The notes beneath the pieces were generated by a model, which was not told the DNA's origin, ran no database searches, and worked only from the letters and a program-made list of their open reading frames with translations. From contig NZ_BSTT01000001.1 in assembly GCF_030269685.1 (NCBI RefSeq), positions 248,001-312,000 of the forward strand: a DNA stretch of 64,000 bases. The letters run 5' to 3'. Both the position numbers and the translations under genes were made by a program. Shown here in pieces: positions 27,210-32,530 of this stretch. Within the stretch, counting starts at the first letter, position 1, and each line of letters starts with the position of its first letter. This DNA comes from Actinomycetospora sp. NBRC 106378 (GTDB lineage: Bacteria > Actinomycetota > Actinomycetes > Mycobacteriales > Pseudonocardiaceae).

Positions 27210-27569
27210 TCAGACGGGCAGGAGCCCGGTGAGGATGTCCGTGATGGAGGTCGTCGACGAGGTGTTGGACGTCCGCGTCGTGGTGTCGCCGTTGATGATG
27301 CTGCTGCCGAGGGTCGCGACGTTGTTCCCCGAGAGGATCTTGTTGCCGTTCGCGATGTCGCAGAGGTTGCTGGCCGAGAAGTCCTGGTCGCCGCCGGTGG
27401 TGTCACCGAGGGTGCGGCCGGCACCGTTCTCGCTGGCACCCTTGATCGTGTTCGAGCAGCCCTGGGCGGCGGCGTGACCCGACTCGTGGGCGGAGGCGAT
27501 CCCGGCGAGCGAGCCGAGACCGGCACCGACGATGGCGGTCGAGACGACGACCTTGCGCAGCATGGACAT
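27210..27569 (-). CDS. small secreted protein of the nine-member tandem family, member 1
   Basis: 119 residues. A signal peptide (MSMLRKVVVSTAIVGAGLGS...IASA) is followed by HESGH, then GCSN, the family block GRTLGDTTGGDQDFSASNLC, and DIANGNKILSGNNVATLGSS with a Ser/Thr-rich tail. The two mature cysteines are separated by 31 residues, as in the other main-group members, suggesting one disulfide. No membrane anchor, sortase motif or enzyme motif. It is the last of nine same-strand paralogues and has its own upstream region, separated from member 2 by a terminator stem. Function unknown; an exported cell-surface or matrix protein is inferred. Confidence 0.85.
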   Translation of the reverse strand: MSMLRKVVVSTAIVGAGLGSLAGIASAHESGHAAAQGCSNTIKGASENGAGRTLGDTTGGDQDFSASNLCDIANGNKILSGNNVATLGSSIINGDTTTRTSNTSSTTSITDILTGLLPV

Positions 27570-27679
27570 GAGTTCTCCCTGGGAGGGGCGGCCGTCTTGG
27601 CCGGAACGGGGACACCCGGCGATGACCGGGCGGGTCGAACGGAGTTGCAGGTGTCGGGCACCCGCGGTGGAGGGGAGCG

Positions 27680-27707
27680 GGGTGGGCCGGCCGAGGGCGG
27701 CCCACCC
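27680..27707 (-). terminator. terminator stem after member 2
   Basis: GGGTGGGCCG ... CGGCCCACCC hairpin, 39 bases downstream of the member 2 stop. Confidence 0.6.
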
Positions 27708-27745
27708 TCCGACTCCGGACGAGACGCACCCGTCCGAGGTGGGAA

Positions 27746-28096
27746 CTAGCCGGCGGCCGGGAGGGTGGTCGACTCGTTGCGGGTGTCGGTGTCGTTCGAC
27801 GTCCGCGTGTCGGTCCGGGTGTCGCCGTTGACGATCGAGCTCAGGCCGCTCGACACGTTGTTGCCGCTGAGGACCTCGTTGCCGTTGAGGATGTCGCAGG
27901 TGTTGCTCACGTCGAGCGACTGCGGGCTGCCGGTGGTGTCACCGAGCGAGTCACCCGAGGAGTTCTTCGCGGCCGCCTCGGCGGTGTTCGAGCAGCCCTT
28001 GGCGGCGTGGCCCGACTCGTGGGCCGACGCGAGGCCGGTGATCGAGCCGAGACCGGCACCGAGGATCGCGGTCGTGATGAGGGTCTTGCGAAGCAT
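27746..28096 (-). CDS. small secreted protein of the tandem family, member 2
   Basis: 116 residues. Signal peptide MLRKTLITTAILGAGLGSIT...ASA, then HESGH, KGCSN, the diverged block SLGDTTGSPQSLDVSNTC, and DILNGNEVLSGNNVSSGLSS, ending in a Thr/Asp-rich tail with no hydrophobic end. Cysteine spacing is again 31. The start lies only 50 bases after the member 3 stop, with no strong stem between, so members 3 and 2 may share a transcript. Divergence of the central block (GSPQSL in place of GGDQDL) marks it as an older duplicate. Confidence 0.85.
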   Translation of the reverse strand: MLRKTLITTAILGAGLGSITGLASAHESGHAAKGCSNTAEAAAKNSSGDSLGDTTGSPQSLDVSNTCDILNGNEVLSGNNVSSGLSSIVNGDTRTDTRTSNDTDTRNESTTLPAAG

Positions 28097-28146
28097 GGCG
28101 GTCCTTCTGGGGAGCGGGACGGACGGGACGGGCGGAATCGCGACGA

Positions 28147-28521
28147 TCAGACGCCGAGGATCGGGCCGAGCACCGGGATCGTGGTGTTCGAGTTGCTCTC
28201 GGAGGTCGACGTCGAGGTCCGGGTGTCGGTGCGGTCGTCACCGTTGCGGATCGCGGAGCCACCGGTGGCGGCGTTGTTGTCGCTCCCGATCGAGTTGCCG
28301 TTGAAGATGTCGCAGACGTTGCTGGCGTCGAACGTCTGGTCGCCACCGTCGGTGTCGCCCAGCGTGCGGCCCGCGCCGTTCTCGCTCTTGCCCGCGATGT
28401 CGTTCGAGCAGCCCTTGGACCCGCCGTCGTGGTGGTCCCACGCGAGCGCGGCACCGGACATCGAGCCCAGGCCGGCACCGATGATGACGGTGGTGAGAAC
28501 GGTCTTGCGCAGCATCGACAT
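28147..28521 (-). CDS. small secreted protein of the tandem family, member 3
   Basis: 124 residues. The start MSMLRKTVLTTVIIGAGLGS is chosen by paralogue alignment and the GGGGGA ribosome site 7 bases upstream; an in-frame ATG 31 codons earlier has no ribosome site. The mature part begins WDHHDGGSKGCSN, followed by GRTLGDTDGGDQTFDASNVC, DIFNGNSIGSDNNAATGGSA and a Ser/Thr tail ending in IPVLGPILGV. Its upstream region carries the 35-base shared motif at 28616-28650. Function unknown. Confidence 0.86.
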   Translation of the reverse strand: MSMLRKTVLTTVIIGAGLGSMSGAALAWDHHDGGSKGCSNDIAGKSENGAGRTLGDTDGGDQTFDASNVCDIFNGNSIGSDNNAATGGSAIRNGDDRTDTRTSTSTSESNSNTTIPVLGPILGV

Positions 28522-28615
28522 GTCGTATTCCCCCGAATAGTTGTCGTCGGTCTTCGTCGCCGTTGCATGCCTCGCATGACCGGCCACGTCGACGTCAACG
28601 GACAGCCCAGTCACG

Positions 28616-28650
28616 GGTCACGGATCCATCACGACGTTCGCCCGTTCGTG
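28616..28650 (-). promoter_or_regulatory. shared 35-base upstream motif (member 3)
   Basis: The plus strand runs GGTCACGG ... CGTTCGTG. It matches the site at 30331-30365 at 32 of 35 positions and lies 94 bases before the member 3 start, against 96 for member 6. Its position and conservation suggest a promoter or activator site. Confidence 0.6.
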
Positions 28651-28735
28651 AAATGCCTCCATGGCGGGACCACGGCCGGAGCAATTACCGGACGCTTTTT
28701 CCGAACACATTCCGTACGGTGCCCCGGAACGACGA

Positions 28736-28780
28736 CGGGCCGGTGTCCGACCCCCGGTCACGGGAGCGGACACCGGCCCG
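28736..28780 (-). terminator. terminator stem after member 4
   Basis: CGGGCCGGTGTCCG ... CGGACACCGGCCCG, perfect 14-base arms, just beyond the member 4 stop. Confidence 0.7.
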
Positions 28781-28799
28781 GGGCGCGGTGGTGCGGAGC

Positions 28800-29144
28800 T
28801 CAGCCCGTGGTCGTCGTCGTGGTGCTGTCGTCGGACGTCGTCCGGGTCCGGGTCACCGTGGTGTCGTCGCCGTTGCGGATCGAGCTGGCGCCCGTGGCGG
28901 CGTTGTTGTCGCTCAGCACGCGGTTGCCGTTGAGGATGTCGCAGGTGTTCGACGCGGAGAGGTCCTGGTCGCCCCCGGTGGTGTCGCCCAGGGTGCGGTC
29001 GGCCCCGTTGGCGTTCTTCGCGGCGACCCCGTTGGAGCAGCCACCCCCGTCGTGGTGCTCGTGGGCGGTCGCCACACCGGCGGTGGAGGCGAGCCCGGCA
29101 CCCAGGATGGCGCTGGCGAGAACGGTCTTGCGGAAGACGGACAT
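28800..29144 (-). CDS. small secreted protein of the tandem family, member 4
   Basis: 114 residues. Signal peptide MSVFRKTVLASAILGAGLAS...ATA, then HEHHDGGGCSN, the block DRTLGDTTGGDQDLSASNTC, DILNGNRVLSDNNAATGASS and a Thr-rich tail. The two cysteines are 31 residues apart. GGGGGA lies 5 bases before the ATG. It is most like member 6, so those two are recent duplicates. No transmembrane or wall-anchor motif follows the signal peptide. Confidence 0.86.
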   Translation of the reverse strand: MSVFRKTVLASAILGAGLASTAGVATAHEHHDGGGCSNGVAAKNANGADRTLGDTTGGDQDLSASNTCDILNGNRVLSDNNAATGASSIRNGDDTTVTRTRTTSDDSTTTTTTG

Positions 29145-29261
29145 GTGATTCCCCCGTGGATCGGTCGGATGTGCTTCCTCGACAGGTCCAACGCATTCCC
29201 GGACATGGCCGTGACGTGCAGCCCCCGACCTTCGCCCAATGGAGGTGCCCGACACGACGAA

Positions 29262-29292
29262 ACGGCCGGCACCCGTGATGGGCGCCGGCCGT
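29262..29292 (-). terminator. terminator stem after member 5
   Basis: ACGGCCGGC ... GCCGGCCGT hairpin 13 bases beyond the member 5 stop. Confidence 0.65.
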
Positions 29293-29304
29293 CGGGTCGG
29301 TCGA

Positions 29305-29655
29305 TCAGTTGAAGGGGAAGCCGGGGCCGAAGAACGCGTCGAAGCTCGTCGTCCGCGTGACCGTCCTGGTGATGGTGGTCTGGTTCCCGTTGCGAATGCT
29401 GCTGCCACCCGACGCGATGTTGTTCCCGCTGCCGATGACGTTGCCGTTCCCGTTGTGACAGGAGTTCGACACGGAGATGTTCTGGGATCCGCCGGTGGTG
29501 TCGCCCAGCGTGCGCCCGGCACTCGTCTTCGACGTCGCCGAGACCGAGTTGGAGCAGGAGTTCGACGGCGCGGCACTCGCCATTCCGCCCGTCGACGCGA
29601 TTCCGACCCCGACGACGGCAGCGGCCACGGCGGCGCGACCCAGGACGTTCTTCAT
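29305..29655 (-). CDS. small secreted protein of the tandem family, member 5
   Basis: 116 residues. Signal peptide MKNVLGRAAVAAAVVGVGIA...ASA, with no His-rich segment, then APSNSCSN, the block GRTLGDTTGGSQNISVSNSC and HNGNGNVIGSGNNIASGGSS, and a Thr-rich tail ending in FFGPGFPFN. Cysteine spacing is 31, as in the His-rich members. It is the most divergent main-group member, with a different signal sequence and Phe-rich end. GGGGGA precedes the ATG. A perfect stem CACCGCCCC/GGGGCGGTG (29682-29704) lies just upstream, in the leader or promoter. Confidence 0.84.
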   Translation of the reverse strand: MKNVLGRAAVAAAVVGVGIASTGGMASAAPSNSCSNSVSATSKTSAGRTLGDTTGGSQNISVSNSCHNGNGNVIGSGNNIASGGSSIRNGNQTTITRTVTRTTSFDAFFGPGFPFN

Positions 29656-29681
29656 GACGATTCCCCCACGATTCCGATGTG

Positions 29682-29704
29682 TGCACCGCCCCTCTCCGGG
29701 GCGG
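29682..29704 (-). other. hairpin upstream of member 5
   Basis: CACCGCCCC-TCTCC-GGGGCGGTG, a perfect 9-base stem 27 bases upstream of the start codon. It could be a leader hairpin or an operator; no other member shows it. Confidence 0.45.
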
Positions 29705-29788
29705 TGTCTCATCAGGGACATCGCCGCACGACGGCGCGATATCACCACGATGTCGGAATGTGCACCGATCAGGTGACGACAGACGAAA

Positions 29789-29859
29789 GGGCCGGATCCT
29801 CGCGCGCTGGGGAGCTGATACCCCGGGAACTCCCGGGGCAGCGCGCGAGGATCCGGCCC
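29789..29859 (-). terminator. long terminator stem after member 6
   Basis: Perfect 21-base arms (29789-29809 and 29839-29859, built on GGCCGGATCCTCGCGCGCTG), enclosing a smaller CCCCGGGA/TCCCGGGG stem. It begins 21 bases past the member 6 stop. Confidence 0.75.
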
Positions 29860-29880
29860 GTCACCGTGCGGTGATGTCGA

Positions 29881-30234
29881 TCAGAGGCCCAGCAGGTCCG
29901 TGACGATGTTGGAGCTCGTGTTCGAGGTCCGCGTGTCGGTCCGCGTGGTGTCGTCGCCGTTGCGGATCGCGCTCGCGCCCGTGGCGGCGTTGTTGCCGCT
30001 GAGGATCTTGTTGCCGTTCAGGATGTCGCAGACGTTGCTGCCGGACAGGTCCTGGTCCCCACCGGTGGTGTCGCCCAGGGTGCGGTCGGCGCCGTTCGAG
30101 TTCTTCGCCGCGAGGGTGTTGGAGCAACCCTTGCCCGCGTCGTGGTGCTCGTTGGCCATGGCGACACCGGCGGTGGAGGCGAGCCCGGCGCCCAGGATGA
30201 CGGTGGCGACGGCGGCCTTGCGGAACATCTGCAT
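29881..30234 (-). CDS. small secreted protein of the tandem family, member 6
   Basis: 117 residues. Signal peptide MQMFRKAAVATVILGAGLAS...AMA, then NEHHDAGKGCSN, the block DRTLGDTTGGDQDLSGSNVC, DILNGNKILSGNNAATGASA and a Thr-rich tail ending IVTDLLGL. Cysteines are 31 apart. GGGGGA sits 7 bases before the ATG, and the 35-base shared motif lies 96 bases upstream. A perfect long terminator follows, so this is a single-gene transcript. Confidence 0.86.
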   Translation of the reverse strand: MQMFRKAAVATVILGAGLASTAGVAMANEHHDAGKGCSNTLAAKNSNGADRTLGDTTGGDQDLSGSNVCDILNGNKILSGNNAATGASAIRNGDDTTRTDTRTSNTSSNIVTDLLGL

Positions 30235-30330
30235 GTCAGATTCCCCCGAATCTAGGACTTCTGTGTCCGGCGGGAATCCGTGCTCCGCGCCGGTCGGTCA
30301 CAGTCCGCTCAACGCGAGGAGACGAAGCAA

Positions 30331-30365
30331 GGTCACGGCTCCGTCACGACGTTCCCCCGTTCGTG
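30331..30365 (-). promoter_or_regulatory. shared 35-base upstream motif (member 6)
   Basis: Plus-strand GGTCACGG ... CGTTCGTG, 32/35 identical to the member 3 site at equal distance from the start codon. Confidence 0.6.
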
Positions 30366-30530
30366 GCGATACATTGCTCTGACCTGCGGCGATGTACCGA
30401 GGATGTGCCTCGTCGACCGAGAGGTGATGGTGGCCGCGATGACAGTGCGTCACCCTTCCGGGATCTTCAGGTGAATCCGCCGGCAGCCGGGTGCCGCGCC
30501 GTCAGGCCGGGTTCGCACCCCGCCTCCGCC

Positions 30531-30589
30531 GCGAGAGTCACGTCAGGCAGCCTTCGACGCCCCTCCGGCCTGCCTGGCGTGACCCTCGC
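30531..30589. repeat. dispersed palindrome, family 3, copy A
   Basis: Arms GCGAGAGTCACGTCAGGCA (30531-30549) and TGCCTGGCGTGACCCTCGC (30571-30589), a near-perfect inverted repeat. A related element lies at 48855-48912. Confidence 0.7.
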
Positions 30590-30610
30590 ACGCCGTCGGG
30601 GCCCGGGAAC

Positions 30611-30658
30611 GACGAAACGGCCGACCCGGAGCGGGGAGCTCCGGACCGGCCGTCGTCG
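30611..30658 (-). terminator. terminator stem after member 7
   Basis: Arms containing ACGGCCG/CGGCCGT and an inner CGGAGC/GCTCCG stem, 13 bases beyond the member 7 stop. Confidence 0.6.
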
Positions 30659-30670
30659 TGCGTGGGGCGC

Positions 30671-31141
30671 CTACGACTGGATCGGCTGCACCGTGGAGGT
30701 CGACGGCGTGGCCGCCGGGGTCGCCTGCGCGGAGGCGGCGGGGGCGGCGGGCGCGGCCTGGGTGGCCGGCGCGGCCGAGGCGGACTCCGGGACCGCGGAA
30801 GCCTCCGTCGGGGCACTGGTGCCGCCCAGGAGACCGCCGACGGAGAGCGTGTTGTTGCTCCCGTTGCCGTTGCCGTTGCCGTTCAGCACGTTGCAGACGT
30901 TCGAGCTGATCGGCGCGTCGAGGACGCTGGCGACGGCGAGCGCGCCCTCGGCGTTCTTGCTGCCGGAGCCCGCGCCGCTGAGGCAGCTGTTGTCGACGTC
31001 GGTGCCGTGGTGGTGGCTCGAGTGGCCGGAGTGGTGGTGCCCTCCGGAGGGAGCGTCACCGGCGAAGGCGGCACCGGCGGAGGTGACGAGGCCGGCGCCG
31101 ATGATGGCGGACGTCAGCACGGTCTTGCGGAACATGGACAC
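30671..31141 (-). CDS. small secreted protein of the tandem family, member 7 (subgroup B)
   Basis: 156 residues, the longest member. GTG 31141 (VSMFRK) is chosen by alignment and an AGGAG site 7 bases upstream. After the signal peptide comes a His-rich segment SGGHHHSGHSSHHHGTD, then DNSCLSGAGSGSKNAEG and DAPISSNVCNVLNGNGNGNG. A long Ala/Pro/Thr-rich tail (about 60 residues, PAAPAASAQATPAATPS) follows, like a wall-spanning linker, but no sortase signal is present. The cysteines are 29 residues apart and the central LGDTTGGDQ block is replaced by SGSKNAEG...DAPISSN, which defines subgroup B with member 8. Confidence 0.84.
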   Translation of the reverse strand: MSMFRKTVLTSAIIGAGLVTSAGAAFAGDAPSGGHHHSGHSSHHHGTDVDNSCLSGAGSGSKNAEGALAVASVLDAPISSNVCNVLNGNGNGNGSNNTLSVGGLLGGTSAPTEASAVPESASAAPATQAAPAAPAASAQATPAATPSTSTVQPIQS

Positions 31142-31256
31142 GCTGATACTCCTGCTCGCGAGGAACCGGCGGTGGGGGACCCGCCGCGGGCCAGAGCACG
31201 AGGCGTCTCCGGCCCGCGATGACGATTCGTTGTGCCCAGACACGGCCTAGGCAGGA

Positions 31257-31279
31257 CCCGGCGCTCGGGGGGCGCCGGG
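31257..31279 (-). terminator. terminator stem after member 8
   Basis: CCCGGCGC-TCGGGGG-GCGCCGGG hairpin 22 bases past the member 8 stop. Confidence 0.6.
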
Positions 31280-31300
31280 CGGTCGTCAGGAGGGGTTCGC

Positions 31301-31645
31301 TCAGCCGATCGGGAGCGTCGGGAGCGAGCCGGCGTCGCCGAGCAGCGCGATGTTGTTGTTGCTCAGGTTGCCGTTGAGGTTGTTGTTCAGCACGTTGCAG
31401 ATGTTCGAGCTGATCGGGGCGTCGGCGACGGACGCGATCGAGAGCAGGCCGCCCTCGGCGTTCTTCGAGCCGCTGCCCGAGCCGCTGATGCAGCTGTCCT
31501 TGACCGAGGACGAGCTGTGCGAGTCGTGCGACTTGTGGCCGTGGCTGTCGTGGCTGCAGTCCGTCGCGAAGGCCGAGCCGGCCGTGGACGCGAGGCCCGC
31601 GCCGATGATGGCGGTGGTCAGGACGGTCTTGCGGAACGTGGACAC
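31301..31645 (-). CDS. small secreted protein of the tandem family, member 8 (subgroup B)
   Basis: 114 residues. GTG 31645 (STFRKT) follows GGGGAG. The signal peptide ends at about SAFA; the mature part starts TDCSHDSHGHKSHDSHSSSS, which adds a third cysteine amid six histidine/aspartate pairs (possible metal ligands). Then come DSCISGSGSGSKNAEGG, DAPISSNICNVLNNNLNGNL and SNNNIALLGDAG. The two family cysteines are 30 apart. The Asn/Gly repeat is denser than in the main group. The long Ala/Pro tail of member 7 is absent. Confidence 0.84.
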   Translation of the reverse strand: MSTFRKTVLTTAIIGAGLASTAGSAFATDCSHDSHGHKSHDSHSSSSVKDSCISGSGSGSKNAEGGLLSIASVADAPISSNICNVLNNNLNGNLSNNNIALLGDAGSLPTLPIG

Positions 31646-31992
31646 GCTGGTCTCTCCCCTGGTCGTCTGACACGTACGCGGTCCGACGGACGCGCACCGT
31701 GCGTCGCGGCGCGGTCACGCGTCACGACTCGGGGACTTCAACGCCTCGATCGAGTGAAGGTCACGGCCAGATGACGAGAGGAGTGACGAGGCAGTCCACG
31801 ATCGAGGCCTGAGCAGGGAATCCGCGCCACACATTCACTCGCTCAGAGCAACGACCCGGGTGCACCCACACACGACGACGGGCCGGCACCCCGTGGGACG
31901 TGAGTCCCTCGAGGTGCCGGCCCGTGGGTCGGTCGGGTCGAGCGCGGCCCGATGGGGCCGGTGACTGCCTACCCGCAGTCGAGGTGCCCGGA
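31646..31992. other. 347-base gap between members 8 and 9
   Basis: It holds the presumed member 8 promoter, including a degenerate form of the shared motif around 31720-31754 (GTCACG, CTCGGGG, ACTTCA, TCGAG in order), and the member 9 terminator (31878-31925). No gene seen. Confidence 0.55.
31878..31925 (-). terminator. terminator stem after member 9
   Basis: ACGGGCCGGCACC ... GGTGCCGGCCCGT, perfect 13-base arms. Confidence 0.7.
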
Positions 31993-32403
31993 CTACGTCG
32001 CCGGGACGCCGGTGGTGGTCTGGGTGTTCGAGGTGTCGGCGCTGGTGCGGGTCAGCGTGCTGGTGAGGGTGTCACCGTTCACGATGCTCGACCCGAGCGT
32101 CGAGACGTTGTTGTTCGACAGGATCTCGTTGCCGGTGAGGATGTGGCACAGGTTGGAGGCCGACAGGTCCTGGTCGCCACCGGTGGTGTCGCCCAGGGAG
32201 TCGCCCGAGCCGTTCTTGGCGTCGGCGCCCACCGTGTTGCTGCAGCCGCCACCCGAGGACGGGTCGCTCCAGTTGCTGCTGTGGCCGCCGTGGTGGTGCC
32301 CACCGTCGCCCGGGTCGTCTCCGGCGAAGGCCGCACCCGTCATGGAGCCGAGGCCGGCACCGATGATCGCCGTGGCCAGCACCGTCTTGCGGAACATCGA
32401 CAC
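31993..32403 (-). CDS. small secreted protein of the tandem family, member 9
   Basis: 136 residues. GTG 32403 (VSMFRKTVLATAIIGAGLGS) is preferred over ATG 32409 because GGGGGA lies 6 bases before it and only 0-1 base before the ATG. The mature part starts GDDPGDGGHHHGGHSSNWSD, then GGGCSN, DSLGDTTGGDQDLSASNLC and HILTGNEILSNNNVSTLGSS, ending in a Thr/Ser-rich tail. It has the main-group core (cysteines 31 apart) but a His-rich front like subgroup B, so it bridges the two. It is the first gene of the array in transcription direction. Confidence 0.85.
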   Translation of the reverse strand: MSMFRKTVLATAIIGAGLGSMTGAAFAGDDPGDGGHHHGGHSSNWSDPSSGGGCSNTVGADAKNGSGDSLGDTTGGDQDLSASNLCHILTGNEILSNNNVSTLGSSIVNGDTLTSTLTRTSADTSNTQTTTGVPAT

Positions 32404-32495
32404 GTTCATTCCCCCATGGAATTCGAGGTGTCCACGGGCCCCTCGGTCGAGGGTCCGCGCCATCACAGAGCGACCAACGCGGGGAACGGAAGACG

Positions 32496-32530
32496 GGTCA
32501 CGGGCCTCGGGGTTACTTCATTCGTTCGAG
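32496..32530 (-). promoter_or_regulatory. degenerate shared upstream motif (member 9)
   Basis: Plus-strand GGTCACGG and CGTTCG at the same 35-base span as at members 3 and 6, 92 bases before the start. The middle is diverged. Confidence 0.45.

Follow-up and report, generated by a model that had tools for sequence, protein, structure and literature searches.

A tandem array of small secreted cysteine-pair proteins with BldN-type promoters is a candidate lineage-specific aerial coat system of Actinomycetospora

Positions 248,001 to 312,000 of contig NZ_BSTT01000001.1 from Actinomycetospora sp. NBRC 106378 (the source genome, 6.3 Mb), a stretch of 64,000 nucleotides referred to here as the window, carry nine open reading frames (ORFs) in tandem on the minus strand (27210-32403; g1 to g9, Table 1). 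An earlier note on this DNA had claimed nine same-strand genes for proteins of 114-156 aa, which the ORFs bear out, and had proposed a structural family of the cell surface or aerial matrix resembling chaplins and rodlins by analogy. The latter proposal gained support from BldN-type promoters in the array, from a site of the same kind before bldM and from a probable BldN orthologue. The source organism is a soil actinobacterium, and Actinomycetospora makes spore chains on aerial mycelium. We consider it fairly probable that the array encodes lineage-specific coat or matrix proteins that are switched on by BldN as aerial hyphae and spores develop, as a functional counterpart of chaplins and rodlins but not as a member of either family. 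The genes, the signal-peptide pattern, the cysteine spacing, the promoter motif, the putative orthologues of BldN and bldM and the conservation within the genus are all read directly from sequence. The earlier note had not mentioned the promoters, the His-rich segments of g7-g9, the subtype made up of g7 and g8, or a further locus in another part of the genome.

The sequence CGTGAC-N16/17-CGTTG has four exact sites in the window, all of them ahead of array genes, with 0.18 expected from shuffles. A wider form, CGTRAC-N16/17-CGTTGR with at least 11 of 12 matching positions, was found ahead of 32 of the 54 array genes of seven genomes, every site lying at -124 to -72. Forty first-order Markov shuffles of the array upstream regions gave a mean of 0.5 of 54 (maximum 2), and random windows from the same loci outside the arrays gave a site in 1 of 2670. 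The BldN motif appears as CGTAACN16CGTTGA in the consensus given by the SIGffRid paper (PMC2375139), and the array motif resembles it, with mostly G for A at position 4 and a spacer of 16-17 nt. Genes without a site mostly occupy the same positions across species (g7, g5, g2 and g1 in the source genome), which suggests shared transcripts. Since upstream alignments of g7, g5 and g1 (four genomes each) revealed no clear BldN site, these three genes are taken as expressed by read-through or as differently driven; g2, with a gap of only 50 nt to g3, is probably on one transcript with it. In genome G200, the 27-nt site typical of g8 sits ahead of the third array gene. The spacer of the g8 promoter contains the palindrome CTCGATCGAG, and the site is invariant though g8 is the fastest-evolving gene of the array.

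According to the passages on BldN in the Chater review (PMC4255298), BldN directly activates the chaplin and rodlin genes in Streptomyces, bldM is its best-studied target, and convincing BldN orthologues are restricted to morphologically complex genera. A search of five genomes with TIGR02952 yielded one match per genome far ahead of the rest, with 263 bits in two Streptomyces-like genomes and 178-183 bits in three genomes of the genus Actinomycetospora, the next matches scoring 74-82 bits (181 and 74 bits in the source genome). The 263-bit gene was provisionally named BldN because it fits the review, a neighbouring gene having a CGTAAC-type site. The candidate of the source genome is 58% identical to the Streptomyces protein over 177 aa, and their neighbouring genes likewise resemble each other (36% over 90 aa). 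The source genome thus likely carries a BldN orthologue beside an RsbN-like gene. In four Streptomyces-like genomes, CGTAAC-N15/17-CGTTGA occurs at six sites, three of them ahead of a 203-aa response regulator, whose agreement with the review leads us to regard it as BldM. The source genome has 18 exact CGTGAC sites (1 in the reversed control), of which four are in the array and one precedes the bldM orthologue, a protein 50% identical to the Streptomyces regulator bearing CGTAAC-N16-CGTTGA. Genome G042 has the same site ahead of its bldM orthologue, and similar sites are also present in genomes G219 and G135. Together, we strongly infer that the array is under BldN control. Two further BldN-like sites, which have similar counterparts in relatives, precede an L,D-transpeptidase-like ORF and a twin-arginine translocation (Tat)-type oxidoreductase-like ORF (both judged by eye; Table 1), and these genes are possible further members of the regulon.

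The alignment of the nine proteins revealed a common layout of a signal peptide, a His-rich stretch (g7-g9), a first cysteine (in the context Cys-Ser-Asn in seven of nine), a Gly/Thr block, a second cysteine and an Asn/Gly-rich segment of the pattern ILNGNxILSGNN...INGD, with tails that vary among the nine. Secretion was judged solely from the signal-peptide pattern, which the earlier note had called near-identical throughout; eight of nine are of the RK type and g5 differs. The LGDTTGGDQ block that it had described is exact in g1, g4, g6 and g9 and nearly so in g2, g3 and g5 (seven proteins of the main type), and is absent from the subtype formed by g7 and g8. Its cysteine spacing was correct in full, with 31 residues in seven proteins, 30 in g8 and 29 in g7, and all 52 array proteins collected by regular expression keep a pair 29-32 apart. 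As the note had also said, there is no sortase motif (L[PA]xTG is absent beyond residue 30 in the 52 proteins scanned). No characterised family matches: the nine proteins, and then 10 and 7 relatives, stayed below cut-off in profile searches of Pfam and NCBIfam, and a profile search of PDB gave no match at E up to 1.

Among 249 genomes of the family Pseudonocardiaceae, with scoring limited to 18 candidates in each, 16 had a match, all of them in Actinomycetospora. Seven of these 16 contain arrays, of 9, 9, 9, 8, 8, 6 and 5 genes (54 in total, the 52 found by regular expression and two A. soli genes found by tblastn). In each of the six other genomes that have an array, it is bordered by the same pair of genes, and positions such as 1, 5 and 9 group across species in a tree of the cores. 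Three observations set the array apart from chance ORFs: direct repeats (218 and 98 nt, 63-85% identity), relatives at the corresponding place in six further genomes, and a ratio of nonsynonymous to synonymous substitution (dN/dS) that is under 1 for 15 of the 17 pairs compared. A core-domain profile run against 394 genomes of the class matched the source genome but no credible member elsewhere, its one other match spanning about 25 residues (E 0.007).

In the proposed mechanism, BldN, once freed from an RsbN-like anti-sigma factor, would transcribe bldM and the presumed units g9, g8-g7, g6-g5, g4 and g3-g2-g1, the array presumably during aerial growth. The signal peptides would export the proteins, each of which probably forms one disulfide across a loop of 29-31 residues. 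Copies and paralogues may then pack against one another through the Asn/Gly-rich segment behind the second cysteine, building up a wall-associated, hydrophilic-faced sheath from which the Thr/Ser/Asp tails would point outward.

Several observations weigh against such a BldN-controlled coat. In nine of the 16 genomes of the genus the search showed no array, only one or two matches per genome that are confined to the signal peptide, so that the array is dispensable within the genus. The matches read in two of these genomes (G118 and G178) belong to another family, labelled QVP in this analysis, of small secreted proteins with VPVNVLGVQVPVQD and, in Actinomycetospora, a signal peptide like that of the array; four QVP places from two array-less genomes scored 7-9 of 12 and hence have no site. 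Two array genomes (G075 and G200) each contain one weak match over cut-off to the chaplin profile PF03777. AlphaFold2, run twice, gave mean predicted local distance difference test (pLDDT) values of 34 and 46 and no usable fold; such models fit a protein that folds only upon assembly, yet prove nothing. The mature parts, roughly trimmed, have a mean grand average of hydropathy (GRAVY) of -0.53 in the array (n = 52), -0.23 in QVP proteins (19), -0.18 in rodlins (4) and +0.54 in chaplins (13), and proteins this hydrophilic may not make a surface hydrophobic. Models and hydropathy speak neither for nor against the amyloid-like strands that the earlier note had thought possible for the Asn/Gly repeats. 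On the regulatory side, 13 of the 18 exact sites in the source genome belong neither to the array nor to bldM, some of them inside open frames, and no BldN-type site lies near the rsbN-like gene. When 17 Streptomyces chaplin and rodlin promoters were scored for comparison, only 1 matched at 11 or more of the 12 positions and 5 at 10 or more. In this form the array motif is therefore more stringent than most chaplin promoters would require, and the link between array and BldN rests on the published consensus and on bldM. Finally, the BldN candidate scores below the curated TIGR02952 cut-off (181 versus 206 bits) and the source genome has 11 further, weaker TIGR02952 matches, so that another extracytoplasmic function (ECF) sigma factor could read the motif. 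The array might accordingly be imagined to encode adhesion or biofilm-matrix proteins of the vegetative mycelium, not a developmental coat, from promoters of such a factor. We regard this as rather unlikely. The hydrophilic, Thr/Ser-rich proteins, three with His-rich stretches, the absence of the array from many relatives and the other ECF sigma genes of the source genome would suit it, but the same site also stands ahead of the bldM orthologue, and bldM is known to be targeted by BldN in Streptomyces.

Descent from chaplins or rodlins was assessed with 13 fetched chaplins, 4 rodlins and 60 column shuffles per profile comparison. None of the nine proteins exceeded the gathering score of PF03777 (ChpA-C), and the hydrophobic chaplin domain VPVNVCGN...NPAFGN was not found in them; the best PF03777 match in the source genome reached 12.9 bits (cut-off 21), so that it has no chaplin above cut-off. 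The score of the whole-array profile was reached by 5 of 60 shuffles against chaplins and by 2 of 60 against rodlins, for which the profile held only four sequences. The most diverged arrays (G200/G219) scored 19.98 against chaplins, above all 60 shuffles (best 19.44), but over only nine columns. Homology of the mature sequences to chaplins or rodlins is thus unsupported, in agreement with the claim of the earlier note that it is not recognisable. It is improbable that the proteins belong to the chaplins or rodlins by descent and have merely diverged far from them. The apparent promoter class and the cysteine pair are shared, the chaplin sequence VPVNVC occurs in some G200 members, and the G200/G219 score points the same way; the lack of any Pfam or NCBIfam match over cut-off, the shuffle-level profiles, and a cysteine spacing and hydropathy unlike those of chaplins speak against it. 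Like the array proteins, chaplins are small, secreted and multi-gene, most have a cysteine pair, and one fetched chaplin (L102) has a 12/12 site at -85; they differ in a cysteine spacing of 17 residues in those fetched (29-32 in the array) and in their hydrophobicity, and the array lacks a PF03777 match and is found in one genus only. Rodlins (RdlA/RdlB) are likewise secreted and Asn/Gly-containing, and three sequences have two cysteines 32-33 apart (counted by eye), near the array spacing, whereas the array-rodlin look-alike HILDD..VLSGN is short. The control by BldN that the review describes for both families in Streptomyces (PMC4255298) would extend to the array, as may a role at the aerial surface. 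RdlA and RdlB are moreover a similar protein pair, as are g7 and g8; in the rodlin study, RdlB forms amyloid and the two differ in fibril behaviour (PMC5314377). The supposition that the family Pseudonocardiaceae has no chaplins was rejected, since PF03777 matches exceeded the cut-off in 91 of 248 genomes. Most of the matches listed lie in frames close to 1000 aa long or longer, G193 and G051 have strong matches in short frames, and within Actinomycetospora four of 16 genomes (G075, G118, G200 and G235) have one weak match each.

Within the array, g7 and g8 are a fast-evolving, species-specific pair. Of 17 dN/dS values (Nei-Gojobori method, NG86), 15 lie at 0.23-0.93; the other two, from g8 against two relatives, are 1.25 and 1.41. 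The g8 and g7 cores are 68% identical to each other in the source genome and 60-77% within five species, versus only 29-57% to their positional counterparts in four other species, a comparison in which g9 and g6 keep 70-85%. Either gene conversion or co-evolution of the two partners, or the two combined, would give this pattern. The g8 ratios and the contrast within and between species would also suit recognition or competition proteins, such as secreted effectors or factors of kin discrimination, led by g7-g8. We find this slightly less credible than descent from chaplins, as no known domain was detected in the nine proteins (the search covered these nine and not the neighbouring genes), the other positions remain below 1, gene conversion explains the likeness within species and alignment error can inflate dN/dS. 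Least probable of all is metal binding through the His-rich N-terminal stretches, suggested by 5-7 histidines in mature g7, g8 and g9, mostly ahead of the first cysteine, given that the other six have 1-3 and the promoter class points to development.

A bolder form of the coat hypothesis is possible and is put forward tentatively: Actinomycetospora may have invented its own aerial or spore coat by capture of a new non-chaplin family into the ancient BldN regulon and its expansion to up to nine genes, with co-evolving g7-g8 giving each species a distinct coat, perhaps for specificity of self-assembly or for recognition. If the coat reading holds, the regulator would have been conserved while its coat proteins were replaced, and what covers aerial hyphae that lack classical chaplins could be tested in a named genus. 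The BldN motif also provides a route to coats of this kind that sequence homology misses. The 2013 review, where it treats their distribution, places obvious rodlins in streptomycetes only and chaplin-like genes in few other complex lineages (PMC4255298). A literature search, which most subscription journals lay outside, found no paper pairing Actinomycetospora with chaplin, BldN with Pseudonocardiaceae, or chaplin and rodlin with Pseudonocardiaceae.

Table 1. Coordinates of array genes, predicted promoters and related features (window positions unless a locus or contig is named)
Feature	Position	Strand	Remarks
g1 (array position 9)	27210..27569	-	119 aa; cysteine-pair protein, secreted by signal-peptide pattern
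g2 (position 8)	27746..28096	-	116 aa; start 50 nt past g3
g3 (position 7)	28147..28521	-	124 aa
g4 (position 6)	28800..29144	-	114 aa
g5 (position 5)	29305..29655	-	116 aa; signal peptide divergent
g6 (position 4)	29881..30234	-	117 aa
g7 (position 3)	30671..31141	-	156 aa; GTG start, ATG at 31135 also possible; no LGDTTGG; His-rich; tail Ala/Pro-rich
g8 (position 2)	31301..31645	-	114 aa; GTG start; partner of g7; His-rich; fastest-evolving
g9 (position 1)	31993..32403	-	136 aa; GTG start, ATG at 32409 also possible; His-rich
g3 BldN-type promoter	28595..28622	-	CGTGAC-N16-CGTTGA; presumably also serves g2 and g1
g4 BldN-type promoter	29188..29216	-	CGTCAC-N17-CGTTGG, 11/12
g6 BldN-type promoter	30309..30337	-	CGTGAC-N17-CGTTGA
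g8 BldN-type promoter	31738..31765	-	27-nt site identical in all seven array genomes
g9 BldN-type promoter	32474..32502	-	CGTGAC-N17-CGTTGG
Inverted repeats	28735-28790; 29785-29870; 31880-31930		long, G+C-rich, after array genes; by eye
BldN-like sites	L123 (source genome C8:205513); L122 (C7:250179)		
Second locus	source genome C6:174-179k (L009 6856-10998)		two proteins of ~500 aa
QVP places	L010 3038-3343; L011 2683-3003; L055, L056, L058, L189-L199		sometimes side by side
QVP-like stub	L198 1465-1572		stop after 38 residues

QVP matches occur in 50 of 150 Pseudonocardiaceae genomes and 21 of 46 genera, some of those within Actinomycetospora being array proteins matched by the signal peptide only. 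Thirteen signal-peptide places were read, comprising 11 QVP proteins, one different protein (L009) and the stub at L198, whose start is near-identical to L199 and which is apparently a decayed QVP copy. Of 18 QVP places scored, four have a BldN-type site between -97 and -110, a fifth shows a match at -239, and five reach 10 of 12. Compared with the array, the mature QVP domain does not stand out from shuffles, of which 8 of 60 attain the score. Scans of QVP proteins with Pfam and NCBIfam gave nothing over cut-off and one sub-threshold ChpA-C match of 11 bits. Homology of QVP proteins to chaplins, first indicated by a profile probability score of 60 (P 8.7e-5), was rejected when four added QVP members lowered the score and 1 of 60 shuffles beat it.

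The two proteins of the second locus have the same LGDTTGG...ILSGNN...NGD core as the array but no cysteine pair, and have long Gly/Thr/Asp-rich tails; relatives are found in G042, A. termitidis and A. chiangmaiensis. A 159-aa secreted protein encoded beside them has an 11/12 BldN-like site at -87. In the array-less genomes of the genus, the upstream flanking gene of the array is present in nine of nine. A clean empty site was not seen, the second flanking gene being absent within 1.5 kb in all nine and within 3-4 kb in the three loci examined further (L201-L203). A scan for sigma-70 promoters and simple terminators showed no excess over shuffles. The long inverted repeats after several array genes have no T runs and are therefore missed by such a terminator scan; the one behind g6 is conserved in relatives.

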